DNA of 41,184 nt from a virus: IMG/VR virus record IMGVR_UViG_3300025151_000097, positions 1 through 41,184 of that record. One strand, given 5' to 3'. Below the pieces are notes generated by a model, which was not told the DNA's origin, did no database searches, and was given only the letters and a program-made list of their open reading frames with translations. This document shows, one piece after another, positions 1,329 to 40,160 of the stretch. Made by a program: the position numbers and the translations under genes. Every line of letters starts with the position of its first letter. Within the stretch, counting starts at the first letter, position 1.

Positions 1329-2500
1329 CGAAGATTCGATTGATTCGTAACGACGGCACAGTGATGACTGTTGATGCAACCGATTACAGCATCAACGTTA
1401 CGCGCAGTGTTCCTGTTCTCCCTGTTCCTCTTCTTGGTGAACGTTACGCTATTGACTTGAATATGGTGACAGCCGATTTCAAAATCAACGTTATTCTCGC
1501 GGATGATGATTGTTCCGCAAGTGCGTTTGAAGCAACAGCGGCGAGTGCAACGATTGATTTTAGCGCGCTTGCAAACGCTGATGGTGGTGTGCATCAAGCA
1601 TACATGACGAGCGGTAGTGTCACTGTCGATGACCTCCACGAAAAGTTCTTTGAAATCGAATCAACATACACAGGAGAAAATAGCGAACGTCCTCCTGTTC
1701 GTATCAAGTTTAACAAAAACACGGCTTCGCATACTGCAACAAACACACCATCAACAGTGCATGTTGGTATTCAAGGTATTACAACTGATGAGGCGTTGGC
1801 ATCCGCAGTCAAGACTGCGTGTGAAGCGGCGTCGTTTACACAGCAGTTGACAACCGGTGGTGGTTCGGGTAACTCATTCAGTAGCGCGTTTACTATCACT
1901 GTAAGCAACGGTTTGAAAACAAACAATGCAAAGTTGACGTTTACGCAAACAGAAAAAGGTTCGGGAGGTAACAACGCGACACCTGTGTTTGGAACAGGGT
2001 TTACACCTTACATTCCTCTTTACGAAGATTTTGCAAAAGGCACTGACAAATCTTGTCGTAGTGCAGGTGATAAATTACAAGACCTCATCGCATACGTCGG
2101 CAACGCGAGTCTTCTCGGAACATCGGGTTCAGCCCTTGCAGGTCGCTCTGACCCCGATGACACCAATGCATTGATTGAATCAGACATCAGTCTATCTGAT
2201 AAGCAAACGGCTGACTACATCATCGGCATTCAGATTCCATACAATTCACTCATCACAGGTTCAGCCGCAACCGAAGATTATACGGAGCGTAACCTCATTA
2301 TTGTTACAGGGCGCGCAGATGCAAACCAACAAGATTCGACAGCAAACACACTTGATGTTGGTGTTGAGTTCGACCCGACCAATAAAAAAACAGGCATCGC
2401 GGGAACTGTTGTTGCTATGGCATTCAATTTTATTGCAGGTGAAAATGTGTATGAAGGTTCGTTGACCTTCATGCCTATTGATTATATTTTGGGGTCTTGA
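1325..2500 (+). CDS. Putative tail-tip / distal tail structural protein
   Basis: This 391-residue protein has no motif I can name with certainty. It is rich in Ser, Thr, Ala and Asn with few long helices, as expected of a beta-rich virion protein. The N-terminus starts with a short strand pattern (MTKIRLIRNDGTVMTV) and the C-terminal third has alternating strands ending in LTFMPIDYILGS. It starts at an ATG that overlaps the tape-measure stop as ATGA, and it lies between the tape-measure gene and the giant tail gene. In long-tailed viruses that position is usually held by the distal tail (Dit-like) or another baseplate-proximal protein. That role is inferred from position only; a tail tube or adaptor protein is also possible. 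Confidence 0.45.
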   Translation: MTKIRLIRNDGTVMTVDATDYSINVTRSVPVLPVPLLGERYAIDLNMVTADFKINVILADDDCSASAFEATAASATIDFSALANADGGVHQAYMTSGSVTVDDLHEKFFEIESTYTGENSERPPVRIKFNKNTASHTATNTPSTVHVGIQGITTDEALASAVKTACEAASFTQQLTTGGGSGNSFSSAFTITVSNGLKTNNAKLTFTQTEKGSGGNNATPVFGTGFTPYIPLYEDFAKGTDKSCRSAGDKLQDLIAYVGNASLLGTSGSALAGRSDPDDTNALIESDISLSDKQTADYIIGIQIPYNSLITGSAATEDYTERNLIIVTGRADANQQDSTANTLDVGVEFDPTNKKTGIAGTVVAMAFNFIAGENVYEGSLTFMPIDYILGS

Positions 2501-2501
2501 A

Positions 2502-14500: not shown

Positions 14501-17500
14501 TATTCAGCCCAATCTATTCAGCAAACAGTTCATGGGAAACAACGAAAACACAGCGTATTCATCAACAGATGCACCAGAAGACCCTTCGGGAACAAACACA
14601 ACAGCGCGAACATTAACCGACCAACTCTTTGCTACGGTCGTTGCAATGAAAAACCGCGACCTTATTCTTTCAGAAGCAACGATGGCTGACGTGCGTGGTT
14701 GTGAAATTTACTTGAACGAAGTCATTTTGGATATTGACCCTTCAACGCGCGAACAATTTACCAACATTCCAATGCTCGGTTTGAGCAACCCGTTTGGTGT
14801 CAACGCTACTTCTTCTGGCGCATTTACGCGTCGCAGTCTTCCGTATCATCCAAACATGTTCCGTCGTTCAACGCCGGGTCAAACGGTGACAATTCCGTGG
14901 TGGAGTGTTGCATTAGCGTCATCGACAATTTTCAGTTCAACTGCACCGTGGAAAGGTTCAGAAATGTATCACCCCGATGATTACTATCTGTTCTGTCGTT
15001 CAACACTTGGAGCGGTCGGAACACAAACAACAATGCTTGGCTACCCATCGCATTACCTTGATGTTTACACAGAATACTTGACATCTCTTACAGCAGTTGC
15101 TACGGTTGAAGACGGCGACCAATCAAATAGCAAATTGTATGTGCGCAACAACAACTTGTTCCCTGTTGCGGGTGCTGATTATTACGCGCAGTATCTTGTT
15201 ATTGTTGATGAAAACGGTGTTGAGCAAAAAGCATCGTATGAGGACAGAGGATACATTAGCGGACTTGGTGCGAGCGGTCCTGTTGTTTTTAACGTGGTGA
15301 CAGCAATTACAAGTGGATTTTGGACAGCGGCAGTTCAAGGTGCAACAGTTCGTATCCAATCGAAACACAACAGAGTTGGCGCAGGTGAATTATACACAAA
15401 TTCCAAAGCGAGTGTTGCTACACGCAACTTACCGCAACTCTTGTCTGGCACGCGCGATACAAACAGCCTACACTTACCCGACGCGTATTTGTGCATGTGG
15501 CACTATAACCTCGGTCGCCCTATGACATGGTTCTCTGATAGTCGAACCAACAAGGGTGATGCGGCGGTTGACAAGAAAGCATACAACCATGCGCCCGAAC
15601 ATTATGAAATGATTCATTACCACGAGTTCACCTACGCCATGAGTGACGGTCCGTTCAAGTTCAGAATGAAAGCATGGAAGGATACATTGGGTGGGTTAGC
15701 AGATACTTACTTAACTGCATCTCTTGTTAATCAAGCAGGGACGGATGGTAAATCGCGCAAATACAATCTCGGTGCATTTTGGCCGGGTGGTCATCGCTTT
15801 GGTGCGCAAATGAGTTCGCTGTCGTTGTATGGCACTGCCGCACCGGGATGGCGCAACAAGTGGGATGATTCCAACATCAAACAGGTGTCTGATGCAGATG
15901 GACTTGTTGTTACAAACGGCGACGTTGAAACAATTACGGACACGCTGTTTACCAAGAGCGTAAAGAAACAAGCGGGTTGGGGTTATCGCATCTCCGTTCG
16001 ACAACCATACAATCGACCTCGTTGGGCTATCAAATCCAACCAAGCATTACGCGACCCACACGCTTACTACCACTTCCAAGCCGAAGGACCATACATCAGC
16101 AGTCAAGCCGCAACAACCCGCATCAATCAACAGTCTGGTAGTGGAAATGTTACGGGAACACAAACAACAACCGAAGGTTATGTTGGTATCATTGAACGTC
16201 AAACCAACGCATCCGCGCTTATCGGAAGCGACCTTAAATTTCAACAAGTGCGATACAGTGATGGTCGGCGCATGACCAAAGGATTCGGTTGCGCAGTGCG
16301 TAACTTCCGCAACCCGACAACAGCCATACGCAAGTTCCATGCTGACCTCCCTGCGGGTCACAAAGCGGGAACAGACGTTGACGACCAAAGAGTCAACCTC
16401 GCACTCGCTCAAGCGCACTACATGATTGATTGGTGGGGTAACACAACGGGTGAAGAAGTTCGTCGATTCCCTGTGCGCGGATTTGGAATTCGACCATCGT
16501 GGGACCCTGAAGATGCATACCGCGCGACAGACAGAACCAAGAGTGCTGAAACCATGTATTCGTCAACAACAGGTATGCAATTTGCTGAAAGTCAAATCAA
16601 TTTCTTTGACCCTGCCACTGCAAAACGTGTCGGTGATAGAGGGGATGGTCGTGGTGTGCGCTATCCAACTTACTTCAATGAAGATATTCTTCAAGACGTA
16701 TCCGAAGATATGCGTCCGTTTGGTTTGGTGTTATCGCATCACACAAGCGAGCCTCCATTCGCAAACGGATACTTGCGTCCTTCAAATTCTCAATTGGAAT
16801 CTTACGAAGTGCCTCGTGGTATCAGCGCAAAATTGGAACTTGCAGGTGAAGATGGTCTGTTAAAACGTGAAGCAAACGTTGGAACAAATATAGAAAAATC
16901 AAATTTCACATTTATGCAAGAACCAATTGCAAAATCAAAACCGCGTATTGGAATAGATGGGATGAGTGTTGTTGAAAACGATGGTGAAATTGCACCACGA
17001 TATGCTATCGCAAGCACAGAAGCAACGAGTGTTCATACCGACCGACAAGTAGGTCAACGGTTTATTCTCGCAGGTGGTGTCAGCACAGCAAACCGCGCAG
17101 TTGACAATCTTAATTTGCATACGCTCAACCTTACATCAGCAAAGCAGGTAATGAAATTCGGAACAACGCATGGTATTCCTCCGTTGGGTGGCACATACAT
17201 TTTGGAGGTATCATCTGATGGTGAATCAATCAGCGACCATGTATGGGGTGCATCAGCCGGTGTGACAACCAATCCATATCAAACAAGTGACCATGATTCT
17301 AAATCTTACAAAACCAACATCAAAGACACCACTATCAAATTCCTTGTTCGACCCGTTCGCGTTCTTGACAATCAACACGTTGAGTTGTTCCGTGATGACA
17401 CAGCGCATGTGTTATCAGCAACAGCCGCAGGTCGCTATGGTGTGTTTGTTTACGATACACCAAACGCACGCGCCGCATTATCGTCTTCCACATACATGCG

Positions 17501-17867
17501 CAACACAAACCCCGCTCCAAACAATCCACCTTACGCACCTGCTTACCTTTTCCAAATATCAGGGGCGGGAGCATCAACAGACGCACCAAAAAGTGTTGGA
17601 CCAAAGATACCGGGTAGCGAAGCAAGTGACTTTACCACGTTGTCAACACAACCTGTCGCGCGAATGATTGTAAGCAACAACACACTTCAACATTTCAGAG
17701 GTGATGCCGCTCGACGCCAATCAGTTCGCACAGACGACGAAGAATTCATACGTCATGATTTCAACGTCCAACCGAGATACACACAATCGCTATACGCGGG
17801 TGACAAATTAAACACGTCATCTCACGATGGTGAAGGTAACAGAACAGATATGGAGGGAACATTATAG
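2502..17867 (+). CDS. Giant tail / host-recognition protein (5121 aa) with N-terminal LamG-like domain
   Basis: One uninterrupted frame of 5121 residues fills 15.4 kb. I start it at the ATG at 2502, 2 bases after the previous stop, rather than at the in-frame TTG at 2478, which overlaps that gene. Residues of roughly 1-225 resemble a LamG/concanavalin-A-like jelly roll: FTVEAWVSP, then QQVKLYVNGELMASHKL, DLYIGGKGG and a closing LWRFEE. Such domains often bind carbohydrate. The rest is rich in Asn, Thr, Gly, Tyr and His, with short beta-strand patterns and repeated NPT/NTNTH-like loops, and no obvious catalytic motif. A module near residue 940 (GRVYLENGASAEYASKTGTT) resembles one near the end of the downstream hub protein (ISGTHAAGAITV to FVSYSGRTATTFTG). 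No signal peptide or membrane helix is seen. Tail tip, side fibre or adhesin is the likely role, inferred from position, size and the LamG-like start. Confidence 0.7.
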   Translation: MSVISQSSHALFFNGVTDSVVCPQGDFTKTGLKTEIYGGVARSSASVLQDGDGHRFANAKKQTLTSFTVEAWVSPDCGGVIASKAGLFDLRMGTVNAPGVASFKVQLSNGVTAVASSANNYPTAAGSFIANNVGYNVGQRELYHISGEFNGQQVKLYVNGELMASHKLNKKHTCNVNDQDLYIGGKGGEYRGYIESLHWKADVSTLETRAKPLMLSNSTIGLWRFEEPVSVDDTIFYATSDVTAGDTTITIGTTACQTLYETVSGKSNTLSSNYTLESLGNYQVANAAHSGGAQVISVAHTPFNLIINPTATDMLSKLPNNSPPERVRLKQINTNGTITVDSIHLDFGVSSDTGSRGVLHSRTAFDASNNLANDSAMVLVRSDLLIDGESGKPYQRVGTGSQAIDRTGAMVIDESLNEFHGFLYSRSLAVNTNNFAPTSWTLAERFKTGHTGRHTFTQKEGHSFLRMFPPVHEQEITRTIDGISDDVSVTFAGSYLGLKNIVPINSKVAVTHTAFNARIVQVKTSATTNGVVRNGLASIDAHRDGVIAISVDDIQPFLLKGGGIGVDSTDDAQYKKHLAPETESRVAILEVSGLTAGYVEIHYNAIDLTGGKMGLSNPALLITKTVPDAGCLLNGKRVAAHIADAVGANATIHAPGGVITASSNDVGNAQVAMKPHHLVGDNTGGIAYDEDLDESFIPSNYTPRATGDEPQKPPQGVGTTVHPSAYHKVHIQPMQRSASDPPVGEAPTHYQESVQFASQKGGAFEMFDIIDNDKDGDAYIFIVQPSKRERTMQLSRVTPSTVDFNDCTYFTIEYVQSNARVTSMEINDSGAGRYVIMAGEGLMSDVADQTVAYGGDGSPDSHIVKEIQPGAPVVSVTLGGAGQGAVNTKPTWDPATLSRVGWNTRHDCAAQIASFSGVSRTIDVNPLNNVTTATANWGTYCFPATGRVYLENGASAEYASKTGTTFTFASGSHRGSGKFLLANGREEDTFANWITNSRIIEGGLVLLDELFSSSSICADGTTVNDRLFQSLGSVQHDYQLGTQYASTRALVEIPLFPQQFFEDRDAKLFPGPDNSMKLHLDATMTAQAWNPSPVGRRAINSPAKDYEAFGQYQYQLNNDAPIRATVLRYDQQGTNTNLHIVDGLDRIPRSDFNDAGVVKGVSTRRARRVVLGNGEWAYYEYNGGTLPLVLSGKETHSSPDFFTSLAVGSQIIVGALPNGVNFPLTGDADYNSSAQEYRRPFYYDRGSVMTQGGNLDYGLRQYVSAVEFKAGPTANPHAPRIQSGGARLKLVSHVSGQTFVFEGDLPKGHLPTNYAFAAVLESTGRKYQITYNSTTNVNQLTTAAHPVLDSGATALGASDEDDFLTVIGIYAINATTLPLKQPDGIANATWNNPYCSGGLRYGDTVWMNMHYTNPHAIEGMFCKSRGVLNEYEVWRGFNGGKGSLGVEARDSLPLENFLIGNTCLESARNFVQHVNKTIELNWTELGHSTSAPVVAFLDPYLSTETHARVLLYDVEHDREFIAFHDLHMQVQTSAATPTIGGLDVAAGFKTQRKDKATTSSTDAQVINSVTYNLIKEEGKSRFVEGAYAHKSWWLMDESFLQVSNVALNKYNRTKRQTDHTIAFGTESSQYGQGRVQQSTVDVNSAQTQHAETIDHDTSEAIVDDTAGHYQFSSTFFDTPEGTRVISAFLCLKGKRATNNSLSQTNRLSNLPHWTEMDFVRRLTIDMGEIGLREGVTDIEAAAREVVRIINQGGALNGRSSQRRPSDQYPGEGERFDINRRSISVAGNDTEEPTDATAVHQHADFAVTGSTHDPAPFWMDNAFTSFDRGSHMGYLRAHLGRVVEDANGNEGYSIVVHSTVPGATSRNFCVWLDNSKGQAEYKPQFLIGHGGRFRNFYCAPPEIAGENMHPAPMPIDKNGKPFAPITTLREYVSLDEDSDEFFTNLHLGFASNFNTSTSDQETPNSGTSTGRASNTGAMESFENSGQKFTIREGLQMGTQARARVNFGGIVAAGIPGFAPDAGLWGFGEDGKNSGRFVSSIYGNYLSAGNSLYGTYNSYAPTTQVSDSSVGTQSLYGLKMVDHRGKSHILRYVYRQADTSFSHKNSVMPKTIDEETLIYFDDRDIAQGGFTIGANMWGVGSDGTPFFYTGTTSHQWRGNKWRGVHTPNAGYAVTMDASMANNTLGIHDASGYGYHNGGIWHHLPDVDDVLGWMGFPDSGLVWLAIPSARNQYGEVGVVFSYTSRTHNGRGGPHTFFGLEGVDADDMTGSGKWFDSQDKCGPTSVSNTRAPVIISPHLNQTTIVTDELIAAATAYAFTVDPNEENQYFDCSHLRAPDGRTYGEIMGDNAETAIKITKFNNNKQIIPLKDLFSVSLSRDWGLQASNVESPDITATLGTKGQFGGVKSTQDLNSMMMDVGYLPYTLLNITTRYRGSNANTATPILVDQTNNPVPTDDWQKHLRGDKYTRYEGDHITPSLEAATYEIDAQSGSLALPATTTYDTYQIEIRDPHHFAVLGRQFAWQLQHVDTGASNLNYDTSTEFGGGTTIDGSWSPFKRMDILDDTYIHCAALSSIDNPTSVDKHLIAFHHNDSKGDIQDELVVDAIIQRFKYVNDIQGLRLRANRRGNPLLYFRGAQDSIDHHVPLYFGGGFSGVVMDINDGSRIDYTAHNKHPYSSGPTGSAGLQDIGEKMGAYALLDTTALFAMFPAAVVANQHRGEPTPPFANQDAVLNPDIDGNTNTHTIPNTTYTNVNIAQPTPVVLRFAHPYARYTDSTNSVAYLVFGPGQAVPKHWYGEGVAIDSAVEPSAKWTAEWKKYCSLDGAMATTFTQGNKAGYFLPNELSNGTLNSAANQFLPPTDAYSANNVFPYTTFRHWEPSYGSPNSAFNQTNSREARYVSNHYGSSSAASYSAANEYAHPFSHYSAVNRFATANTNFELNKIVYHLDGGYTAGGSWFDNSVRKNPPHPVTATLVNSVNATVQYIDRLGLNATMFRVGSQVLTDYDHDLNAAVPDDVFLIDASRCQNSEELGAVIAAAINTWPGPANLKALGGSFLPSFQDAQRQDRYGWIDVGDLSAYTNAPHGLVSVGTALPMTLPENGWIRVSNGTKSYYGYYSHYDVAQGTFVLGLNARSNTLRLEEAAVSGPGDVAAVDSDAGTHTVFVWSKAGNLRWDNGFQNATDTSRSTSATSSGQMSNSPFDHYATTQVHFNGVTDAIDRTRAVGAVGWHGERYSYFNSLNISNKVAAGLGAWHPMMGFTPYGAATACHNPKSMEWILKLGTDAGVSTDNAESIWEPKTNIHEAVGLHQRHFVVISYEGDLPIIAKADRNGQKTCGDMLQLKWGGTKGGTVVSYHNDRFNNDRYSAESNAGPHVEAMHDMTMTEPTNADANTRLWTHAASTSLVQSETCLYPTGDLFFDKTENPNNEQYPNDNLFDSETAKVEMTGYSSYGTHRDGIYGYFKGRTAARNFFAEHVVWKRMGGGNLTLPAQNARGLGSTPWQVHKVGDAYVRFGETIYGNVRFSFETTNAVMYPIIQAQELAHPALAEQHPYEVRNALSIPNEELQFGKMIVVDDTGQEHTLEGGSPLGVVIRDYELVHDRESQGLAPALAGSGTQPNMKIQIPDHDEIPGNILVRAGFDRLQAYQHETMGSGGLQHPSQPTKTVQLAFQSDSDQPRTEPFWEQDGYEHINQNPNNFPDSNNDLQSGNILQTAYEPHDRALYFHVTKMGYTHTEREPMRIINNVMTLNRLTVDVIGTNTITTKEVINHNIWKQDPTPDGRYFITINGTIASFEDPLNNLDGTTKVFENVVFAPDFTASENDSIKPSYYIPAGSTRQFAARRLRDHAEVSGNSPDKAHTNWSSLSAGTSPATLVRAANKLTPMPIPRMGHHYVMPTMAMLPGHLAHPLYQTIYKANRACFGATEYDTTKDIANPLVWFSGTTAPNPPSDIHGDGFTLLTETKLRFDGYGIADDTASCNAVGGHRIQLETGTNYNTAFHFPDPAEVGAYQIVIQPNLFSKQFMGNNENTAYSSTDAPEDPSGTNTTARTLTDQLFATVVAMKNRDLILSEATMADVRGCEIYLNEVILDIDPSTREQFTNIPMLGLSNPFGVNATSSGAFTRRSLPYHPNMFRRSTPGQTVTIPWWSVALASSTIFSSTAPWKGSEMYHPDDYYLFCRSTLGAVGTQTTMLGYPSHYLDVYTEYLTSLTAVATVEDGDQSNSKLYVRNNNLFPVAGADYYAQYLVIVDENGVEQKASYEDRGYISGLGASGPVVFNVVTAITSGFWTAAVQGATVRIQSKHNRVGAGELYTNSKASVATRNLPQLLSGTRDTNSLHLPDAYLCMWHYNLGRPMTWFSDSRTNKGDAAVDKKAYNHAPEHYEMIHYHEFTYAMSDGPFKFRMKAWKDTLGGLADTYLTASLVNQAGTDGKSRKYNLGAFWPGGHRFGAQMSSLSLYGTAAPGWRNKWDDSNIKQVSDADGLVVTNGDVETITDTLFTKSVKKQAGWGYRISVRQPYNRPRWAIKSNQALRDPHAYYHFQAEGPYISSQAATTRINQQSGSGNVTGTQTTTEGYVGIIERQTNASALIGSDLKFQQVRYSDGRRMTKGFGCAVRNFRNPTTAIRKFHADLPAGHKAGTDVDDQRVNLALAQAHYMIDWWGNTTGEEVRRFPVRGFGIRPSWDPEDAYRATDRTKSAETMYSSTTGMQFAESQINFFDPATAKRVGDRGDGRGVRYPTYFNEDILQDVSEDMRPFGLVLSHHTSEPPFANGYLRPSNSQLESYEVPRGISAKLELAGEDGLLKREANVGTNIEKSNFTFMQEPIAKSKPRIGIDGMSVVENDGEIAPRYAIASTEATSVHTDRQVGQRFILAGGVSTANRAVDNLNLHTLNLTSAKQVMKFGTTHGIPPLGGTYILEVSSDGESISDHVWGASAGVTTNPYQTSDHDSKSYKTNIKDTTIKFLVRPVRVLDNQHVELFRDDTAHVLSATAAGRYGVFVYDTPNARAALSSSTYMRNTNPAPNNPPYAPAYLFQISGAGASTDAPKSVGPKIPGSEASDFTTLSTQPVARMIVSNNTLQHFRGDAARRQSVRTDDEEFIRHDFNVQPRYTQSLYAGDKLNTSSHDGEGNRTDMEGTL
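17852..17857 (+). promoter_or_regulatory. Strong Shine-Dalgarno (GGAGGG) inside the end of the giant gene
   Basis: GGAGGG lies in the last codons of the giant tail gene. The next gene's frame is open from 17840, but it has no ATG, GTG or TTG near this site; the in-frame codons after the site are AAC, ATT (17861) and ATA (17864), and the first standard start is GTG at 17933, which has no Shine-Dalgarno of its own. A spacing of 6 bases makes ATA at 17864 the best-placed initiation codon. Confidence 0.55.
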
Positions 17868-20348: not shown

Positions 20349-20701
20349 TGAGTCCTATGGAGAAAGCATGGCGTTTGCTCAAAGCACCCGAAGGACCGTG
20401 GTTTCATGGCACGTCACGCATGAACCAAGCCATGCAAGAAGGACTACAACCAAAGGGTCGTGTGCGCTATCCTGACAACACACAAGCCCCAAGCCCTGCA
20501 CTCTTCTTTACCACTGACCCAAAAGAAGCGCGCGGTTTTGCAACGCAGTCTAAGTCAAAACCGAATGAACGACCGGGAGTTGTTCGCGTTCAAAATTTAG
20601 AGGGAAAACCAATTAAGATGGGAGATGGACGAAAACATATAATCGTGCGCAAACCTGTGTTGCGCGACAGATTTGAAGAGGTTGATGACGATGCCAACTG
20701 A
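20348..20701 (+). CDS. ADP-ribosyltransferase-like (ART/PARP-fold) small protein
   Basis: 117 residues from the ATG at 20348; an ATG at 20345 is also possible, but GGAGG at 20336-20340 is 7 bases from the second and only 4 from the first. Residues 18-23 (PWFHGTS) match the 'HGT' strand of ART and RNA 2'-phosphotransferase/PARP-like folds. Residues 24-37 ([14 protein letters not shown]) fit the usual helix and 'GL.p' turn, and 52-65 ([14 protein letters not shown]) fits the 'lyfT.....A..ya' core. A clear third catalytic residue (Glu) cannot be placed; EEVDDD near the end is only a candidate. The N-terminal MEKAWRLLK is shared with other late proteins here. ART-fold proteins use NAD+ to modify proteins or nucleic acids, and T4-type phages inject such enzymes. 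Enzymatic activity is not proven by sequence, and the domain is short. Confidence 0.55.
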
Positions 20702-22709
20702 TAACATTGCTGGACACACAGCCGCGCAAAATACGCTCGGTGAAGACGGGCTACGAGATGGTGATTCTCTGTCACCAACGACGCTAACGAATCTTATTCA
20801 AGGTGTGCATGGTAACGGTATTTTGCGCTACCAAGATGGTGCGTTTGATTCAACACGCAACGAAACAAACAGCGGTAATCAACCCGGTTCAATAATTCGT
20901 GCTTCATCAAGCACACTTACGGTAAGCGGTGGCTTTGTTGTTCTCGACGGCGCAGTGTATGAGTTCGGTGGAGGTGTCGGTAACACAGCAACGGTTGACC
21001 TTAACAGTGGTTCACACGGTAGTGGTGCGCTAACACTCGCGGCCAACGAAGAAGCAATTTACACAATTTACGTTGCGCCAAGCGGTGGTATCAACAAGAT
21101 ACATTACGAAGGTGGAAGCCCTGTCGATACGTCAACAGGACTTTACCCATCGGCGTCAAATCAATATCTCATCAACTACAAAACATTGTCATCGGGTGCA
21201 AATGCGAAGACTATCGTTCTTGCGCACGTTCGTGTTCAATACGTTGGGAGTGGTGGTGGAACAAACAATCTCAACGTTGTTGAAATCAACGACAAGCGCG
21301 TTTTTCTTCAAGGCACAGCCAAGTATCACATTCCTCTTTCAACAGGAACAATCACGAGCGGAGAAATTGTTGATGGTGGTGACGCGGGTATCAACACCAT
21401 CGAGCATCTCAACGCCATCCACAACGAAAACGGAGAACTCGCTGTAACAGATACAATCAACCCGCAGTGGGTTAGTCATCCACGCTATGGCACGCCTAAC
21501 ATCACTACACCACCGGGAGCAAGCGACGCAGGGTATGGACATGGTCCTTCGCGCGGTCAAGACCGTGGTGCAACTCACGCTCCCGACACACTGTATTTTG
21601 CGGGGCGCAATAATGAACAGACAGGACACTACGCTGTGCGTTTGCAGGGTCGTGGTGTTGATGCAACAAGCACTGCCCTAACGACAAACGGAACATGGGT
21701 TATCACGGCTGATGGTGATTCATTCTTCATGCTCTCACCAAACGGTGGTGTGACTATCACACTCAATCCTGAACGTGACGGAAGCGCGAATTACAAGTTC
21801 CCCGAAGGACATATCATAGAGATATGCAACGAGGGCGCAGGTTCTATCGTGTTTGATAATTATGGCGACTCGGCTGACTTAAACGCTACTATTGCTACAA
21901 CAGAACGCGCTACATTGATTTACGAAGGGAATGCTTGGATTCGGTGCAATTATCCCGCAGGGGCGACAGGTCCCGCAGGTCCCGCAGGTCCCGCAGGTCC
22001 CGCAGGTCCCGCAGGTCCCGCAGGGGCTACGGGCGCGGCGGGAGCAACAGGTCCCGCAGGTCCCGCAGGTCCCGCAGGTGCTGATGGTGCTGATGGAGCG
22101 ACGGGCGCGACAGGTGCTACGGGAGCAACAGGCGCGACAGGCGCAACAGGTCCGGCAGGTCCGGCAGGTCCGGCAGGTCCGGCAGGTGCGGCGGCTCCCC
22201 TTCCCGACGTTTTGATGGTGGCTATGCTACCTCCGGGCAGCGCGAACATTGGAAGTGCTAATCCCTATGATGTTGAAATAGGTGACGCCTCATTATTTGG
22301 TATTACGGCAACTCGCGGAAGTTCAATCACTCTTCCCGGCTTAACGGGAGGGGCTACGAATAAAATAGATTTAGCGGCGGGGTTGTATCAAATCACATTC
22401 AACGGTTGGATTCAAGTGAACGCGGCGATAAGTGGCAGTCTTGATTATCAATTGAAAATATCAGAAGACCCTTCATTTGCCTCTTCCAACATTGCGTTTG
22501 ACAGAAATATACAACATTTCGGAGCGAGCGCGACAGTTACACCTATTATTGACCCGTCGCACAGCGTTATGTTCAACACCCAAGTATCAACGTCGATTTA
22601 CATACGAATACATTGTGCTTCAGGTAACGCGCAAACGTGGTATTTACGAGGCGATGCGGCAAGTCAATTAACGAACATTTCGATTTTGAGGGTAAGCGAC
22701 CACGTTTGA
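20691..22709 (+). CDS. Collagen-like tail fibre protein
   Basis: 672 residues from the ATG at 20691, which overlaps the end of the preceding gene in another frame and has GAGGT 8 bases upstream; the earlier in-frame ATG at 20673 lacks such a site. The order is an N-terminal domain ([20 protein letters not shown], then beta strands such as [20 protein letters not shown]) that resembles the fibre-base part of many tail fibres; a central beta-rich region; a collagen-like stretch of about 26 Gly-X-Y triplets (GPA, GAT, GAD); and a C-terminal beta-rich domain of about 165 residues that may be a C1q/TNF-like trimer head. Collagen-like stretches form a trimeric stalk in phage fibres. The last domain is probably the receptor-binding tip. 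Its stop overlaps the ribosome-binding site of the next small gene. Confidence 0.75.
21957..22194 (+). repeat. Collagen-like coding tandem repeat
   Basis: A run of 9-base codon triplets encodes Gly-X-Y. Six identical GGTCCCGCA units occur from 21969 to 22022, three more near 22050-22077, and four GGTCCGGCA units near 22149-22184, with GAT, GAA and GAD triplets between. The near-identity of the units within each block, but a different proline codon between blocks (CCC against CCG), points to recent expansion in two separate rounds. Such tracts change length easily by slippage or recombination. Confidence 0.9.
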
Positions 22710-25200: not shown

Positions 25201-25335
25201 CTACTCTTCTTCCGAACCTTTGATTGGGATGTTATTCAATTTGCGCACAGTTAAATCAGCCAAATACAGTGCGAACTCAAGAAGTGTCAACACTATGATT
25301 ACTGCAAACAATGTCATGATGAGCGTCACAATCAT
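25201..25335 (-). CDS. Tiny membrane protein after the thermosome gene
   Basis: 44 residues. The ATG (25335-25333) overlaps the thermosome stop as ATGA, the coupling used across this operon. The N-terminal half is a hydrophobic helix (IVTLIMTLFAVIIVLTLLEF), then a short basic segment (VRKLNN) and an acidic end (SEEE). The stop lies 2 bases from the stop of the convergent + strand gene. No family is recognised; a single-pass membrane protein at the end of the replication operon. Confidence 0.65.
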   Translation of the reverse strand: MIVTLIMTLFAVIIVLTLLEFALYLADLTVRKLNNIPIKGSEEE

Positions 25336-26840
25336 TGACCACGCCTCGCAATGATGTCATCAATGCGAAGGATTGAACAGGCTACCTCTGTTGCTGAATT
25401 GATGATTTGCTCAACAAGTGCGGCGGGTTCCCACACACCATGAGCGGATGTATCAGTGATTTCTCCTTCACCTGCAAAGTCAATGTAAAGACCTTCCAAG
25501 TCTGAACACGAGCGCAACTCCATAACAACATCAAGCGGGTCCATACCCGCGTTGCTTGCAATAGCGGCAGGGATAATCTCAAGAGAATCAGCATATGCTT
25601 CCATGCACATTCTCTCACGCGCAGTCATGTCTGGCGATTCAGTCGCATGTTTGCGGATGACCATTGACAACTTCGACATGATTGCTCCACCGCCGGGATA
25701 CAAGCGGTCGTCTTTCATGAACAAGCACACAACACCGAGAGCATCATCAAACGCTCGCTCGTATTCATCAAGGGTTTGCCGAGTTGCGCCTCTGATAATC
25801 ATTGTAACAGTGTCGGCTTCTTCGGCTTCGACAGAAACATAGTCGAGGTCGCCAATGCGAATCGGCTTAATTGTGCAAGCGACACCTGTTTGGTCGTAAT
25901 CTTCGGGAACGTCAGTTACACGGTGAAACGTTGGCACACTTGTAATCCGAGCAATGGTATCAAAGTCACTTTGTTGAACACGGCTTATAACACCAATTCC
26001 TTTTGCGTCAAGGTATTTTGCAACAGCCTCATGCACACCATCGCGAACAATAAGGACGTCACATATTTCAGCAACAACCGATGACACGTTGCTTAGAATT
26101 TGCATTTCTTGTTGACGAATTTGTTCAAGTTGTGAGGGGTCGCTGATTTGCATCTGAACGTCTTCGTAGTTGAAACCGTCAAGACCTCCATCAAGCATGA
26201 GCAGTCGCACACCTGTTTTTCCTTTGAAGTCTGGATTGATGAATGTCTTGTTAAGAACAAGACCTTCGTGGATGTGTGAATGGTTCAAGTAACCACCTGC
26301 TTGTGTGAGTATGCGGACGCGGTCCAATTCACCATCGACTCTTTGAGCGGCTTCGGCTACAAGTTGAGCGGCGTATCCAAGAGATGCTTCAGATGCTTTA
26401 CCTCGTAGCGCAGTAGCGGCTACATGTTCAGCCTTGACATCCACAGTTCCACTTGAAACAGGCATGTTGCGAAGAGCAATACTTGATGCCTTATTGAATG
26501 CGCGCACAATGACTTGTGGATGGATACCTCGCATAAGCAGTCCTTCACTTAGCGCGAGCATTTGACCTGCGAGAACAACAACACTTGTTGTTCCATCTTT
26601 GCATACTTCTTCTTGTGTTTGACTCGCTTCAACCATCATTTGCGCTCCGGGGTGCGCGGTGTCAAGTTCTCGGAGAATGGTAATACCATCGTTGGTTACA
26701 ATGGTTTCTCCACGTTCGTCAACGAGCATCTTATCCATACCCGCAGGGCCAAGTGTTGACCTTACGGTTTCGGCCACTTGCACAGCGGCGCGGATATTGC
26801 TCATTTGGGCTTCTCTTCCTGTCTTTCTTTCTTCTGACAT
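25332..26840 (-). CDS. Group II chaperonin (thermosome subunit)
   Basis: 502 residues, somewhat shorter than the usual 530-550 of archaeal thermosomes. Family signatures run from end to end: TVRSTLGPAGMDKMLVD (26-41), VTNDGITILRELD (48-60), KDGTTSVVVLAGQ (81-93), the apical domain in the middle, IIRGATRQTLDEYERAFDDA, PGGGAIMSKL, EAYADSLEIIPAAIASNAGM and ILRIDDIIARR at the end. The nucleotide loop reads C-K-D-G-T-T instead of the common G-D-G-T-T, keeping the Asp. The DD pair in AFDDAL matches the region of the hydrolytic Asp in chaperonins. Thermosomes form double-ring ATP-driven folding cages with a built-in lid. A viral copy may fold capsid or tail proteins or replace host subunits. Chaperonin genes are, as I recall, reported in magroviruses. 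GGTGA precedes the ATG. Confidence 0.95.
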   Translation of the reverse strand: MSEERKTGREAQMSNIRAAVQVAETVRSTLGPAGMDKMLVDERGETIVTNDGITILRELDTAHPGAQMMVEASQTQEEVCKDGTTSVVVLAGQMLALSEGLLMRGIHPQVIVRAFNKASSIALRNMPVSSGTVDVKAEHVAATALRGKASEASLGYAAQLVAEAAQRVDGELDRVRILTQAGGYLNHSHIHEGLVLNKTFINPDFKGKTGVRLLMLDGGLDGFNYEDVQMQISDPSQLEQIRQQEMQILSNVSSVVAEICDVLIVRDGVHEAVAKYLDAKGIGVISRVQQSDFDTIARITSVPTFHRVTDVPEDYDQTGVACTIKPIRIGDLDYVSVEAEEADTVTMIIRGATRQTLDEYERAFDDALGVVCLFMKDDRLYPGGGAIMSKLSMVIRKHATESPDMTARERMCMEAYADSLEIIPAAIASNAGMDPLDVVMELRSCSDLEGLYIDFAGEGEITDTSAHGVWEPAALVEQIINSATEVACSILRIDDIIARRGQ

Positions 26841-29973: not shown

Positions 29974-30212
29974 TCAGACAACCCCCATATGTTTACGTCG
30001 TATGTTCCTTTGGTGATGGCACTTCCTTGACTCTTTGTTGATTCAACTACCATGAACTCTGGATACTTCGCTAAGATGTTTGATAGCGATTTAGGCGTCG
30101 GTGAACTGCGAGGCCATTTTTCTTTAATGGCTGTTGCAATTTGTTGCATTGTCATGTCACCATTTTCTCTCAACACTGTTGTGATGTATCGAACCATTCT
30201 TGGCTGTTTCAT
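29970..30212 (-). CDS. Small winged-helix DNA-binding protein
   Basis: 80 residues from the ATG at 30212, which overlaps the primase stop as ATGA; a longer upstream extension would lie inside the primase gene and is rejected. The pattern MVRYITTVLRENGDMTMQQI, then ATAIKEKW, SPTPKSLSNIL and MVVEST fits a winged helix-turn-helix with the recognition helix at about SPTPKSLSNILAK. It might regulate the replication genes or help the primase or nuclease bind DNA. The fold is inferred from pattern alone. Confidence 0.55.
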   Translation of the reverse strand: MKQPRMVRYITTVLRENGDMTMQQIATAIKEKWPRSSPTPKSLSNILAKYPEFMVVESTKSQGSAITKGTYDVNIWGLSE

Positions 30213-31291
30213 TTTTCCCACCCGAAATCTCCTGTTCCATCCCACAGTTGACAGCGACCGATACATAGACCCTTTCCCATTAGGCTTTCACAGCGTTCCA
30301 TGTAACCGCCATCGACGATTGAACGTATTTGATATTCAGTCACAGACGGGTCATAGTCAGCCCACTGCAACGTCTTAATGAAATCATGAAGAGTGAGAAC
30401 ATGCGCCTCTCTCATTTGCACCGTTGTTCGTTGCACAGGTAGGAAGTTGCGAAGTCGCGAGGCTAAGTAAATAGCCAGACTTGCGCGGCTGATATGTGGT
30501 GGATTGCTTCCGACTTGACATGCCGCTTCCATGAGGCATGGTAGGATTTTGATGCTACCCATCTTTACAGTATCGAATTGAACAGGCTCGCCTGTCACTT
30601 TGAACTCTTTCTTTTGAACTTCTTTGATTGGTAAATCAACACCTTTCTCACCATAGAAATGAGCAGTGTTGCGTGCTTCTTGAGCCAAGTGGCAAATCTG
30701 TTCCCAATCGTTTAAGGTCAACATATCACTTGTAAGCGGAATGCTCCAACGAAGAACATGCTGTTTAGCGTTGTATGAATTAGGCACACGAATCATACGC
30801 GCAGTGTCGAATGGCACAGTCGGGTCCATGCAATACAATTCCATGTCCTTTTTCCATTTGTTAATGACCTTCTTACCTGCCGCTTTGATATGCGACACCT
30901 GCGTTCCAGACGAAGGCAGATGTGTTTTGTTTAGCGCAATCCAAATGTGAAATCCATTACCGCTGAACCATACACCATGTTTGATGTTTTCTTCAAGCAG
31001 GTAGTAATGAAGACGGCGAATTTGTTGAACAACCTCATCACCTTCAACCTCAACCATGTTGCTTCCTTTGCGATACTTCTTGTCAAAGTCCAAAACAAAA
31101 TGGGAGATGATGGCTGTGTTGTATTCAGCACGACGACCGTTGGGTTTGACAGCGCGAAAACCATAGACAGACATATACGCGCATTGTGAATTCTGCAACG
31201 AACTCCAATACCTTTCAAATTCTTCATTGCTGTTGACAATTTTTCTGAACAATCCAACTTCTTTTGGAAAATCAATCGGTAGTGCTTTCAT
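30209..31291 (-). CDS. Archaeo-eukaryotic primase with fused PriS-like and PriL-like parts
   Basis: 360 residues from ATG 31291 (GAGG 7 bases upstream). Residues 1-175 form the catalytic part: FVLDFD (65-70) holds the metal-binding D68 and D70, WFSGNGFHIW (108-117) is the sGxxH motif, and DTARMIRVPNS (162-172) carries the basic and third-motif residues. The C-terminal 110 residues resemble the iron-sulphur domain of PriL: C252 in LPCLMEA, then HISRASLAIYLASRL, TEYQIRS, and C334, C343 and C347 near the end. This places catalytic and FeS parts on one chain instead of two subunits. Its role would be to make primers for PolB. It overlaps the zinc-ribbon gene upstream by 20 bases. Catalytic parts are clear; the FeS assignment is inferred from cysteine spacing. 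Confidence 0.8.
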   Translation of the reverse strand: MKALPIDFPKEVGLFRKIVNSNEEFERYWSSLQNSQCAYMSVYGFRAVKPNGRRAEYNTAIISHFVLDFDKKYRKGSNMVEVEGDEVVQQIRRLHYYLLEENIKHGVWFSGNGFHIWIALNKTHLPSSGTQVSHIKAAGKKVINKWKKDMELYCMDPTVPFDTARMIRVPNSYNAKQHVLRWSIPLTSDMLTLNDWEQICHLAQEARNTAHFYGEKGVDLPIKEVQKKEFKVTGEPVQFDTVKMGSIKILPCLMEAACQVGSNPPHISRASLAIYLASRLRNFLPVQRTTVQMREAHVLTLHDFIKTLQWADYDPSVTEYQIRSIVDGGYMERCESLMGKGLCIGRCQLWDGTGDFGWEK

Positions 31292-31445
31292 GGTCAAACC
31301 TCATTCCCGCAGTAATAGCAAAGTCCTTCAATTTCTCAACGCAATGGGAACAGACTTTCTCTTCTTGTAGTATCTCCCAATACTTACAGATAGGACACTC
31401 AACAATGTTGAGTCGTTCTTTCAAAGATAACCATGTTTCTGTCAT
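31272..31445 (-). CDS. Small zinc-ribbon protein
   Basis: 57 residues from the ATG at 31445, which overlaps the stop of the Cas4-like gene (ATGA). CPIC (17-20) and CSHC (32-35) form a likely zinc-binding pair, with helices on both sides. It overlaps the start of the primase by 20 bases, so the two are translationally linked. It may be an accessory to the primase or nuclease; no family is recognised. Confidence 0.65.
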   Translation of the reverse strand: MTETWLSLKERLNIVECPICKYWEILQEEKVCSHCVEKLKDFAITAGMRFDHESTTD

Positions 31446-33215: not shown

Positions 33216-35615
33216 TCACCAATATGTTGCGGGTCGTGGGGTTCCAATTGCGGCTTCGACATCCCAACCCATGATGTCAAATATGCCAGAGATTTTCTTC
33301 TCAATCGTTTTGTTGAGAATGGTTTTAGCATCCAACTCAAATCCCTCAAGTTCAGCAGGTTCACGGTAAGCAACCACTTTGGTTGCAGGTAAACCATTTG
33401 GAACGGCTGAAACGTAAGTCCATTGAACAGAGTCGCCCGATACGAACGGGTCATCAGATGCCATGTGTTTGTTGTAGTAGTAAGCGGCCTTCGACGCACC
33501 AGACAGTGTCTTGTAGGATTCAGGATTCGCGCTGATTCTTGTTGATTGGGTGACGTCTTTCAGATTCATTTCTGATTTGCGCACAGGCAAAGCCAAGTCA
33601 AGGACTGCGGCTCTGACGTCACTCTCCGATGCACCGTCACACACAAGATTGAGAACAGTTCCTTCGGCTTCTTTGCTGATAGGTGCAAGACTGCTACCTT
33701 TCATGAAGTTGGCAGTCTTCATTTTACCAACGTCTTCGGGTGGATAAGATACCTTACCCGCATATTTGTTTTTACCTGCCAACAACCAATACGGCATGTA
33801 AGCCTCAAGTTCAGCAATCAATTTCTTATTGCCTGTTGTTTCTTGAACAACATCCGTGATACGCGCGGCTAACGATTGCGCTTCGTCAAGTGGCACTTGG
33901 ATGAAAGCGGAGTCTGTGAAACCGTAAAGCACATTGTATCCCATGTTGGTTGCGACTGTGTCGAGCAAAGCAATACATCGTCGTCCTTCGGAGAGGATTG
34001 TTTCAGCAATATCAAGGTCAGCCCATCCAAATCCAACACTCGCGGTTGCACCATATAGACTCGCCATGACTCGCTTGACTGCGGCTTGGGTGGTGTTCCA
34101 AGCAACACGAACTTCTTTGGTTTCTGCTTCGCGCATTCTTGTCTTACACAACTCACGGTATTCAAAGAGGTCGTCAACAACTTGAGGAAGTATGCCTTTG
34201 GTCTTCTGATTCCAATACGTTCCGTTTTCCATTTCAATAATGCCGGGTCCCGGTCCATCGCATTTTGTTGTCCAACAAAGATTGAATCCTGTCATGAGTG
34301 ATGGATACAGACCTTTGTAGTCAACAACAGCAACGCCTTCGTAAAGACCATTTTCTTTCAAGATGAATTCAGCACCTTGAATGTCTGGCTTTTCAACGTT
34401 CATACGAGATGGGGCTTTCATATCTGTTTTGCGCCCAAGTAATCCACGCATGAAGTTAGACACACTTGTGGATGATTGAATGGATACACCACAGAGGCGA
34501 ACCATTTCAACAGAAAAGTCAGTGACATTTCGTGCTTCGTCAATTCCACGAAGAAGGACGGTGTCGAGCAAACAGTAGTCAACAAATTCTTCCCAATACT
34601 CATACCATCCATTGTGGACATCCATGCCTTCAATCTCTTCGGTCAATTTTGAACCAAGCCCAAGTATCTCTGCAATAGTATTCAACTTACGGTTAGGTAG
34701 TTGACCTCCACCGCTGTCTTTCCATACGCGTTCAAAACCTGTGCCAGATTGAGCAGGGGCGGCTGTATCAAATTGCCATCGACCCGCGATAGGTTGGTCA
34801 TCGAATCGGTATCGCTCTCCTTTCTTTGGATAGCGAATGATACCAATTGGACTCAATCGGTGTGAGCCACCATGACCGTAAATGTGGTCAAGGCGTTCAA
34901 TCATGTGAGGTATGTCAAAGAATGTTCCCGCGTGAGCAATCATCATGTCAGGGTTGCGCTCATTGAGAAACAAAATAAAATTGTCATACATGTTTTTTTC
35001 ACTTGAAAACAATCGCAAGTCGTATTCAACATCGCGCACCTTTCTTTTGATGCAATTGTTTGCACCGTCCGGTAAAGGTCCAATCCAAGAAGTGATTTCA
35101 TCACCGCCGTTCGCATGAGGTTTGTAGGGACAGTTGGTGCGTTCATCAGCCCATGCAAAGACAACGGGTTTGTCAAGGTCGGAGTCGATGACAGCGATGA
35201 CGGTCGTGAAGTTGTCATCACCTGTGTTGCATTCAATATCATACCACCATTTGCGCGGTTTCCACTTCGGCATTTCGGTAAAGTTCTCAACCAAGTATTG
35301 GTCAACGTAACGCATGTCACCTTCGTATGATTTGCTGAACATCTTCGACATAGCAGAGATGTTGTATGGGTTGTTTGTTTCAACCTTCCAAAGCGTAGCA
35401 CCATCAAGACCTTCAAACATTACATCTTTGCGCACCTCTGAATCTGGAAATGAACGTCGCATGTTTTTGATTCTAAAGTCTGGTGTTGCGGTTGGGATGT
35501 AAAAGTGTGGTTTGTAATCCACAACTCGCTTCTCTATCAACTCACCATCTTGGTTACGGTATCGTGTGTAAATGGTCGGTGGACGGTCGTCGTGATAAAT
35601 AGCATCAGCAATCAT
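33216..35615 (-). CDS. polB: Family B DNA polymerase with proofreading domain; variant motif C
   Basis: 799 residues. The exonuclease domain has ExoI YDIE (D126, E128), ExoII AHAGTFFDIP (D234) and ExoIII YCLLD (Y347, D351). Polymerase motif A is VVDYKGLYPSLM with D432, motif B is AVKRVMASLYG with K514 and Y521-G522, and motif C is LYGFTDSAF (564-569), so the usual YGDTDS reads YGFTDS. The second Asp of motif C (D568), the essential one in known PolBs together with the motif A Asp, is kept. The C-terminal thumb region is present and the length is normal. It would copy the viral genome with the clamp, loader and primase of the same operon. The start overlaps the clamp stop as ATGA. No intein or ribosomal frameshift is seen. 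Confidence 0.95.
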   Translation of the reverse strand: MIADAIYHDDRPPTIYTRYRNQDGELIEKRVVDYKPHFYIPTATPDFRIKNMRRSFPDSEVRKDVMFEGLDGATLWKVETNNPYNISAMSKMFSKSYEGDMRYVDQYLVENFTEMPKWKPRKWWYDIECNTGDDNFTTVIAVIDSDLDKPVVFAWADERTNCPYKPHANGGDEITSWIGPLPDGANNCIKRKVRDVEYDLRLFSSEKNMYDNFILFLNERNPDMMIAHAGTFFDIPHMIERLDHIYGHGGSHRLSPIGIIRYPKKGERYRFDDQPIAGRWQFDTAAPAQSGTGFERVWKDSGGGQLPNRKLNTIAEILGLGSKLTEEIEGMDVHNGWYEYWEEFVDYCLLDTVLLRGIDEARNVTDFSVEMVRLCGVSIQSSTSVSNFMRGLLGRKTDMKAPSRMNVEKPDIQGAEFILKENGLYEGVAVVDYKGLYPSLMTGFNLCWTTKCDGPGPGIIEMENGTYWNQKTKGILPQVVDDLFEYRELCKTRMREAETKEVRVAWNTTQAAVKRVMASLYGATASVGFGWADLDIAETILSEGRRCIALLDTVATNMGYNVLYGFTDSAFIQVPLDEAQSLAARITDVVQETTGNKKLIAELEAYMPYWLLAGKNKYAGKVSYPPEDVGKMKTANFMKGSSLAPISKEAEGTVLNLVCDGASESDVRAAVLDLALPVRKSEMNLKDVTQSTRISANPESYKTLSGASKAAYYYNKHMASDDPFVSGDSVQWTYVSAVPNGLPATKVVAYREPAELEGFELDAKTILNKTIEKKISGIFDIMGWDVEAAIGTPRPATYW

Positions 35616-36385
35616 GCTTCCACCCCTTCTTGATGTTTGAGGATGAGCAGGGCATCAACTTCTGTGTGTTCCATAACAAGCGCACCCTTATCTCCCATGT
35701 GAAACAGGATTTCACCGCTTGGCATGAGGTTCATCAACTTTGGTAAATGCGGTCCAAAGACAGTCAAACAAGGTTCCCAATTAGCGGCAAGGTCAATGTC
35801 AATTTGTCGGCTCATTTTTGCACCTCGACTCTGACCTGCTGTGATTGTCATTTCTCCATCTGAAACATTGATGCGAACAGGCGCACTCTTACCAACAACT
35901 TTCGTTAGCGATTCCAATCCACGAATGTCCTCCGTGTTGAGTGTTCCATGACATTGCAATTTAGCGCGGCCAAGAATCGACCACGACTTTTCTTTCGCGG
36001 TAAAGATAGCGACCTTTGCACGTTCCACTGTTTGATAGGAAGTAATGTATTCGGATGTTGGCATACTGAACTCGTCGTTACCGTTCTTTAGCGTGAGAAC
36101 GTTTCCGAGATGTCGTAGTTGAGTAAGTTCTTCTTTACATGATTTCAAGAATGCACCGACTTTCTGAACATCGGGGATGTAAACGTGACCTGCGCGGTAA
36201 CTTTCAGCATGAACACCAATCAAGATGCCGATGCTTTTGGTAAAGTAATGTGTTGCAGTATCAGCATGACCGCGCAGACGCATATCAGAAATCTGACATC
36301 GAAGGTCGTTGACTCCTTCACCAAATCCTGTGATGTATGCGTGCAGTTCATCGTTTCTAAACATGGCTTGAGCAAGATTACTCAT
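35612..36385 (-). CDS. Putative PCNA-like sliding clamp
   Basis: 257 residues, the usual size of PCNA. Similarity by eye is weak but consistent: a beta/alpha pattern through the chain, a middle region like the inter-domain connector (SMPTSEYITS), and near the end FGPHLPKLMNLMPSGEILFH with MGDKGALVMEH and DALLILKHQEG, which follow the order of the last PCNA domain. There is no DNA-polymerase or nuclease motif. Its place directly upstream of PolB and in an operon that also holds an RFC-type loader supports the call. Alternatives are a processivity factor of another type. ATGA overlaps link it to both neighbours. Confidence 0.65.
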   Translation of the reverse strand: MSNLAQAMFRNDELHAYITGFGEGVNDLRCQISDMRLRGHADTATHYFTKSIGILIGVHAESYRAGHVYIPDVQKVGAFLKSCKEELTQLRHLGNVLTLKNGNDEFSMPTSEYITSYQTVERAKVAIFTAKEKSWSILGRAKLQCHGTLNTEDIRGLESLTKVVGKSAPVRINVSDGEMTITAGQSRGAKMSRQIDIDLAANWEPCLTVFGPHLPKLMNLMPSGEILFHMGDKGALVMEHTEVDALLILKHQEGVEA

Positions 36386-39238: not shown

Positions 39239-40123
39239 CTATTGTGTTTTTGTTTTCTTGTCTTCGTTATACAGGGATGCTACAAAGTAGTCCACAAAGG
39301 ACTCCATTGAGAGCGGCCATGCGTTCATTCTTAGCACGAAATCTCCCCATACGACGAAGAAAGTATATAGTTGTTCCGAAGTCATTCCCACGGATTTGAC
39401 ATGTTGATGAATGCTCATCATCAAGTAGTGAAGTGATGTTCCTTGTCTGACCAATTCAAGCATGGTCTTGTGTGTTGACTGCCAATCACCTGCGGCGATG
39501 TCAAGTGACAACGATGCAATGTCAGTCTGTTCCTGTTCAATTGTCGCGCCACTTAGGTAGTGGTTGGCAATAGCGCGTAAATCCCCGTTGAAGTATTTCT
39601 GCAACACTGCGGGGCTGTCCTTTGGTATGTGACCGTTGACGTCAACAAGGTATTCCATATAGGCGCGGACTTGTTTTTCATTGTAAGGTTGGAATTTGAA
39701 GTGGACACAGCGTGACAAGATAGCAGGGATGACGGACGTGAAATCGTTGCACGTTAGTATCCACCAACAGTTGCTTTTCTCCATCATGCGCTTCAATGCG
39801 TCTTGAGCGGGTTTGGTCATACCTTCAAATTCATCCAACAGGATGAGGCGTGGATTCCACAGCGAACTTGTATAGGCAATCTCTTTGATTTTGTTTCGCA
39901 CTGCGTCAATGCCTCTCTCATCGGAGGCGTTCAATTCGACAAGGTCGAGATTGAAATGTTGCGCAATCAGATATGCGGCGGTTGTTTTTCCAAGACCGGG
40001 TGCGCCACTGAAGAGTAGGCATTGGGGGCTATCACCTTGCCATTCGTCAAGGTAAAACAACGGGTTGTTCGGGTCGTCGTGACCGACGTAGTGTTCGATT
40101 CGTTTTGGTTTGTGTTCGGGCAT
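39239..40123 (-). CDS. rfcS: Clamp loader small subunit (RFC-S-like AAA+ ATPase)
   Basis: 294 residues from the ATG at 40123, with GAGG 7 bases upstream (the ATG at 40129 has only 2). Classic RFC boxes are present: Walker A SGAPGLGKTTAA (39-50), VELNASDERGID (62-73), Walker B LILLDEFEGM (93-102, where the usual DEAD reads DEFE), sensor ILTCND (122-127) and ILSRCVHFKF (135-144) with the SRC arginine finger. The C-terminal third is helical as in the collar domain. The size is near the 310-330 of archaeal RFC small subunits. Together with the putative clamp it would load the processivity ring. No large subunit is present in the window, so the pentamer may use a single subunit or a host one. Confidence 0.93.
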   Translation of the reverse strand: MPEHKPKRIEHYVGHDDPNNPLFYLDEWQGDSPQCLLFSGAPGLGKTTAAYLIAQHFNLDLVELNASDERGIDAVRNKIKEIAYTSSLWNPRLILLDEFEGMTKPAQDALKRMMEKSNCWWILTCNDFTSVIPAILSRCVHFKFQPYNEKQVRAYMEYLVDVNGHIPKDSPAVLQKYFNGDLRAIANHYLSGATIEQEQTDIASLSLDIAAGDWQSTHKTMLELVRQGTSLHYLMMSIHQHVKSVGMTSEQLYTFFVVWGDFVLRMNAWPLSMESFVDYFVASLYNEDKKTKTQ

Positions 40124-40160
40124 TTTCATTCCTCGACCACCACGACAGATTGAGCGCGTT

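Follow-up and report, generated by a model that had tools for sequence, protein, structure and literature searches.

The question raised by this locus is what it means for a viral DNA polymerase to lack the first aspartate of motif C. The window, i.e., the whole stretch of DNA analyzed here, is a 41,184-base virus record, and it encodes a family B DNA polymerase (PolB) in which motif C reads YGFTDS. This reading, first made in an earlier note on the same DNA, is real: Phe566 is encoded by TTC at 33918-33920 and stands in place of the first motif C Asp (D541 in Pfu). The same protein has Asn616 (33768-33770) in place of the minor-groove lysine of the KKRY motif (Pfu K593). The first Asp of YxDTDS and the second Lys of KKRY are usual in PolBs, but neither universal nor defining, and the window PolB has neither. 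Judged from sequence comparison, this paired loss of Asp and Lys looks more like the rebuilding of an error-checking contact than the breakdown of the enzyme.

The window protein matches Pfam DNA_pol_B (E 2.5e-30, 106.1 bits, cut-off 23) and, in its exonuclease domain, DNA_pol_B_exo1 (E 2.9e-8, 33.9 bits, cut-off 23). Its AlphaFold model (mean pLDDT 89.2, pTM 0.81) has the PolB fold, with archaeal KOD/9N-type polymerases as the best Foldseek matches and TM-scores by query of 0.73-0.77 for the first ten. A rechecked alignment pairs Pfu D541, K593, R613 and D615 with F566, N616, G640 and S642 of the window PolB (Table 1). The second motif C Asp (D568), the motif A Asp (D432) and the exonuclease residues D126, E128, D234 and D351 are retained, as the earlier note had it, and both polymerase aspartates expected of a PolB, D432 and D568, are kept in every magro-type row that covers them.

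Table 1. Positions of the polymerase gene, its motifs and neighboring genes in the window.
Feature	Position	Strand	Remarks
Family B DNA polymerase gene, magrovirus type	33216..35615	-	799 aa ORF; Pfam matches, AlphaFold model
ExoI, D126 and E128	35232..35240	-	Kept
ExoII, D234	34914..34916	-	Kept; usual ExoII Asn is Ala229 (residues 229-234: 34914-34931)
ExoIII, Y347 to D351	34563..34577	-	Kept
Motif A, D432-YKGLYPS	34299..34322	-	Catalytic Asp kept
Motif B, K514 to G522	34050..34076	-	K514 and Y521 kept; usual Asn is Ala518
Motif C, Y564-G-F566-T-D568-S569	33909..33926	-	YGFTDS, residues 564-569
E602 and E604	33804..33812	-	Equivalents of KOD metal C ligands E578/E580 by alignment; kept
KKRY place, K615-N616-K617-Y618	33762..33773	-	Alignment to Pfu
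G640-S641-S642	33690..33698	-	Aligned with Pfu R613 and D615; neither residue of this second minor-groove pair remains
ORF directly upstream of PolB	35612..36385	-	Weak sliding-clamp family match, phrog_947 E 0.003
Clamp loader subunit	39239..40129	-	phrog_168 E 1.9e-38
Possible primase	30209..31297	-	Moderate match, phrog_16345 E 4.6e-5
GroEL/TCP-1 superfamily chaperonin	25332-26840	-	Grouped with replication genes; Pfam E 7.8e-119

Besides the genes in Table 1, the minus strand encodes an ERCC4-type nuclease and a PD-(D/E)XK nuclease, and the plus strand carries a very large ORF, a weak phage-tail match and a collagen-repeat protein. For the product of the ORF directly upstream of PolB, a search among solved structures gave no convincing relative. 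A PolB, a clamp loader, a possible primase and a chaperonin, the set that marks Magrovirales, are found together on this one record, opposed to the virion genes. Aoguangviridae and other Magrovirales have a similar gene content (PMC10768690, PMC12999244); they have PolB, primase, clamp, clamp loader and GroEL-type chaperonin in common with the window, and their replication and virion genes also run in opposite directions (PMC10768690). From gene content and the place of the polymerase in the tree, we infer that the virus is of the magrovirus type. This PolB belongs to a marine archaeal virus.

Seven IMG/VR scans yielded 104 distinct magro-type rows, of which 98 cover both positions 566 and 616. 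The last three scans added 155 new loci but just 7 further distinct rows, and for these queries the sampling of magro-type rows has nearly reached saturation. Before the 118-row set was formed, 58 duplicate loci and one locus with no profile match (L110) were removed; 6 of the 118 rows are without motif C. Residue 566 is His in 73 of the 98 rows, Phe in 25 and Asp in none, and residue 616 is Asn in all 98 and Lys in none. Alignment with relatives, the check that the earlier note had proposed, thus shows the Phe to be a clade feature, carried by 25 distinct rows with protein identities to the window PolB down to about 64%. The possibility it had raised of a single-base error among relatives that all carry Asp is ruled out, since no row has Asp and both Phe codons occur (TTC in 16 rows, TTT in 9). 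That note covered the derived Phe state only; the larger family has His, and no examined member has Asp. A search of the available literature for YGHTDS found no mention of it, and a search of genome contigs for chromosomal relatives with an F-clade alignment profile returned 46 stretches, none of them a relative.

No covered magro-type row departs from the motif A Asp, the second Asp of motif C or any of the four exonuclease acids, and R487, K491, K514, Y521, E602 and E604 are likewise invariant. This invariance is consistent with the suggestion already made for the window PolB that activity could persist. Other conserved positions have changed: Ala518 replaces the motif B Asn in the F clade and in 14 H rows, and the ExoII Asn is Ala229 in 100 of 101 covered rows. 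Each of 16 long relatives has exactly one PolB match, these records not being certified complete.

The tree comprises 47 of the 107 rows of our wider set, with positions 566 and 616 removed, and is not rooted by the method. All magro-type rows form one branch (100/100), and the F clade (100/99) is nested within the H rows. The magro branch falls in a 99/99 set together with B5, haloviral and T4-like rows, all of them Asp-type, which is the placement expected of magro group PolBs. In the available text of PMC7544198, these belong to the PolII-like clade, are grouped with B5 and T4-like polymerases as here, and have their own clamp and clamp loader; that text is silent on their motif C and KKRY. 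The nearest groups in our tree, haloviral and haloarchaeal B5 PolBs and the T4-like ones, and the magro type share the same exonuclease and palm motifs, but the B5 enzymes retain YGDTDS and the second KKRY Lys. Because the surrounding groups are Asp-type, the simplest order of changes would be Asp to His to Phe.

The two replaced residues are strictly paired. Among 221 PolBs, 91 have both Asp and Lys, 130 have neither, and none is mixed. The wider set of 107 rows (75 Asp, 13 magro-type, 19 B2-type) shows Asp-Lys in 75/75 Asp rows, His/Phe-Asn in 13/13 magro-type rows, and Ile-Thr (17) or Ile-Asn (2) in 19/19 B2-type rows from Halobacteriota genomes. The label B2-type rests here on missing ExoI/ExoIII and on the conserved motif C His described in PMC7544198. 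Asp-Lys is also found in 21/21 haloviral/T4-like rows, 8 of which are among the 75, and both residues are kept in 3/3 phi29-type rows. In crAss-type phage PolBs, the pair is Asn-Asn in 12/12 (xNTDG with xN[S/N/D]Y; loci L340, L343-L352, L354), where the KKRY place was read in their own alignment and not in one joint alignment; this sample is crAss002 and 11 others of 785 related phage records found by tblastn with the crAss002 PolB. A protein of a Streptococcus salivarius linear plasmid (L342:1544-3589) reads YCAVDS with NINIY, i.e., Ala-Asn with no KxY lysine, but this is a weak case, as the protein is hypothetical, has diverged strongly and matches no Pfam polymerase family. In the magro, crAss-type and plasmid cases, the new partner at the KKRY place is Asn. 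The polymerases piPolB and PolB_SITDG are also without the first motif C Asp; the phi29 query found no annotated piPolB.

The wider set omits L264-L267 and 70 of 80 haloarchaeal B5 loci. By text pattern, 76 of these 80 have YGDTDS and KKRY, and 4 have LHNTDS with KKRY intact and were set aside from the pairing counts. Inteins end in HN, and we read the four LHNTDS rows as intein junctions; if they are real Asn states, they are exceptions to the pairing. One Halobacteriota PolB group (L307-L310) has no readable ExoI/ExoIII, yet keeps YADTDS and KKKY, and exonuclease loss alone is thus not accompanied by the switch.

Magro-type rows do not group with B2 rows, and the two losses lie far apart in the tree with strong support. 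The magro, B2 and crAss-like PolBs belong to three different major clades in the available text of PMC7544198. Two independent paired losses can be counted on the tree, where a sign test is unable to reach 0.05 with two events, and three or four by clade assignment. By these sequences, the switch has taken place in the magrovirus, archaeal B2 and crAss-type phage lineages, and perhaps also in that of a plasmid polymerase. The motif C and KxY of crAss-like and HelPrimPolB enzymes are described as profoundly different in PMC7544198, whose available text does not connect the Asp and KxY changes with each other.

While the residues, their fixation, their pairing and its recurrence come from the present analysis, the salt bridges and metal ligands are taken from published work. 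In the accessible part of PMC5718519, the metals in KOD/9N ternary structures are held by D404, D542, E580 and, via water, E578, and the first motif C Asp is absent from the list of ligands. In Pfu bound to DNA, Asp541 instead forms a salt bridge that orients KKRY Lys593, which hydrogen-bonds the penultimate primer base from the minor-groove side; the same role is ascribed to RB69 K706 and phi29 K498, and further minor-groove readers are Arg613, oriented by Asp615, and Tyr495 (PMC3733885, available sections). By motif B match, Tyr495 corresponds to Tyr521 of the window PolB. In phi29 and human pol alpha, mutating the first motif C Asp alone severely weakens the enzyme, and the first Asp hence matters where the Lys is kept.

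The altered metal binding considered in the earlier note is not supported by these sources, since the KOD/9N metals are not on the first motif C Asp (PMC5718519, in part) and the Lys to which the Pfu Asp is bridged (PMC3733885, in part) is also lost here; the other effects it had named, on fidelity or damage bypass, are likely. Even so, loss of the Asp might alter the metal site and change fidelity in consequence: one paper counts RB69 D621 with D411 and D623 as a catalytic triad, with metal bound "directly or indirectly" (PMC3792054), and the His of most family members might in principle serve as a ligand. We find this explanation unlikely. All KOD/9N ligands in the available text of PMC5718519 have kept equivalents in the window PolB, Phe cannot bind metal, and the concurrent loss of the KKRY Lys is left unexplained. 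For B2, rescue of the first-Asp loss by another Asp has been proposed in print. We sought such an acid among columns that are acidic in 90% or more of 91 magro-type rows but not in Asp-type rows, and none proved both invariant and specific to the palm. Position 577 is Asp/Glu in 88/91, E602 is common to B5 types, and E295 lies in a segment absent from other PolBs. A replacement acid of the kind proposed for B2 is thus not supported in the magro type.

Archaeal PolB2/Dpo2 (B2/G2) resembles the window PolB in having lost both the first Asp and the KKRY Lys. Since Dpo2 lacks the first Asp and performs damage-induced mutagenic bypass (PMC7390963), and B2-type rows show the same paired loss, the virus might carry a translesion polymerase of this kind. 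This is quite improbable. While B2-type rows combine Ile with Thr/Asn and are without ExoI/ExoIII, the magro type combines His/Phe with Asn and keeps all exonuclease acids; with these acids present and no grouping with B2 rows, the window PolB does not have the marks of a B2/Dpo2 member. Moreover, it is the type found as sole PolB match in each of the 16 long records, it sits with a clamp loader, and its paired loss is shared with crAss-type phages. The crAss-like phage PolBs (EpsilonN-like clade in the available text of PMC7544198) have both residues replaced, are phage-encoded and are likely replicative, although they differ from the magro type in being Asn-Asn, in having TDG and not TDS, and in belonging to another major PolB clade. 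In three cultured phages with a crAss-type Asn-Asn PolB, Escherichia phage WildeMaa, Acinetobacter phage Loki and Rhodobacter phage RcHartney, a PolB neighbor is annotated as clamp or beta subunit (3/3). Replication is likely compatible with loss of the first Asp, because catalytic residues are kept, the PolB is the only one found, and the phage enzymes have clamp neighbors.

A further alternative is that both residues changed because fast-evolving lineages diverge throughout, the two positions being functionally unlinked. The independent events are few, and other conserved positions such as ExoII Asn229 have changed as well. We nevertheless give this alternative even less credence, since, of the 64 columns at least 90% conserved in Asp-type rows, magro and B2 share the loss of just four (229, the ExoII Asn; 566; 616; and 642), three of these belong to the published minor-groove pairs, and 0/221 rows are mixed, with Asn as the new partner in magro, crAss-type and plasmid proteins. 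Within the magro family, motif C and KKRY are tied together a second time by the co-change of residues 564 and 618 (Tyr/Tyr 61, Ala/Asn 36, Phe/Tyr 1), and residue 619 is Phe (59) or Val (14) in His rows and Ala (25) in Phe rows. At residue 640 (Pfu R613), the 98 magro-type rows have Ala, Gly or Ser and never Arg, and residue 642 (Pfu D615) is Asp in just one. In the 75 Asp-type rows, the 640-642 pair is R-D in 70, R-S in 3 and K-N in 2. This second pair is not strictly coupled, being R-S in T4-like rows, K-N in two haloviruses and mostly Q-S in B2. In the magro type, two of the three published minor-groove contacts are thus lost together with both anchors, and Tyr521 stays.

That the polymerase is degenerate or inactive is hardly credible: B2 was formerly called inactive on account of a similar substitution (PMC7544198, available text), but here the frame is open, the catalytic residues are invariant in all covered rows, a second PolB is absent in 16/16 long relatives, and one residue is fixed across the F clade.

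Instead, the window PolB is probably the active proofreading replicase of the virus, in which a charged minor-groove check has been dismantled or rebuilt and Phe566 has become fixed in one clade. From the kept residues and the lost contacts, we infer both the activity and a changed checking of mismatched or damaged ends. In ordinary PolBs, the first motif C Asp would anchor the second KKRY Lys by a salt bridge without being needed for the metals, and the anchored Lys would enter the minor groove of the newly formed base pair. In the ancestor of the sampled magro-type PolBs, Asp to His and Lys to Asn may have been replaced together, and later, in one clade, His would have given way to Phe as Ala took the place of Phe/Val at residue 619. 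Also lost in the magro type is the second minor-groove pair (Pfu R613-D615). Polymerization would persist, with new base pairs read via neutral Asn/His contacts or mainly by Tyr521, and checking might have become looser, or have changed in kind while staying just as strict. Counterweights to this explanation are the few independent events, the inclusion of the first Asp in the RB69 triad (PMC3792054), the impaired phi29 and pol alpha mutants, the loose coupling of the second pair, and the change of ExoII Asn229 to Ala, by which other active regions are seen to have changed too.

The more general claim could as easily fail as hold: that the first motif C Asp is a sensor anchor and not a catalytic ligand, that PolBs undergo a recurrent two-residue switch, that magroviruses lack the second reader as well, and that Phe is the end state of a path. 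The switch is defined here as Asp-Lys to His/Phe/Asn/Ile with Asn/Thr, whereby the newest base pairs lose their charged reader in the minor groove. Loss of the first motif C Asp has so far been read as inactivation or, in B2, as need for a replacement acid, and strict pairing with the KKRY Lys is a simpler and testable reading. If true, the PolB that replicates magrovirus genomes inspects ends in another way. The pairing also bears on copying-error control and damage tolerance in viruses abundant in ocean and gut, and it makes available natural polymerases that differ in the state of one contact.

Two further genes of the window deserve mention. A single open frame of 5129 aa on the plus strand (2478-17867) takes up more than one third of the window. 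On the same strand, a 678-aa protein (20673-22709) contains collagen-type triple-helix repeats (Pfam Collagen E 8.4e-13) and is perhaps a virion fiber.
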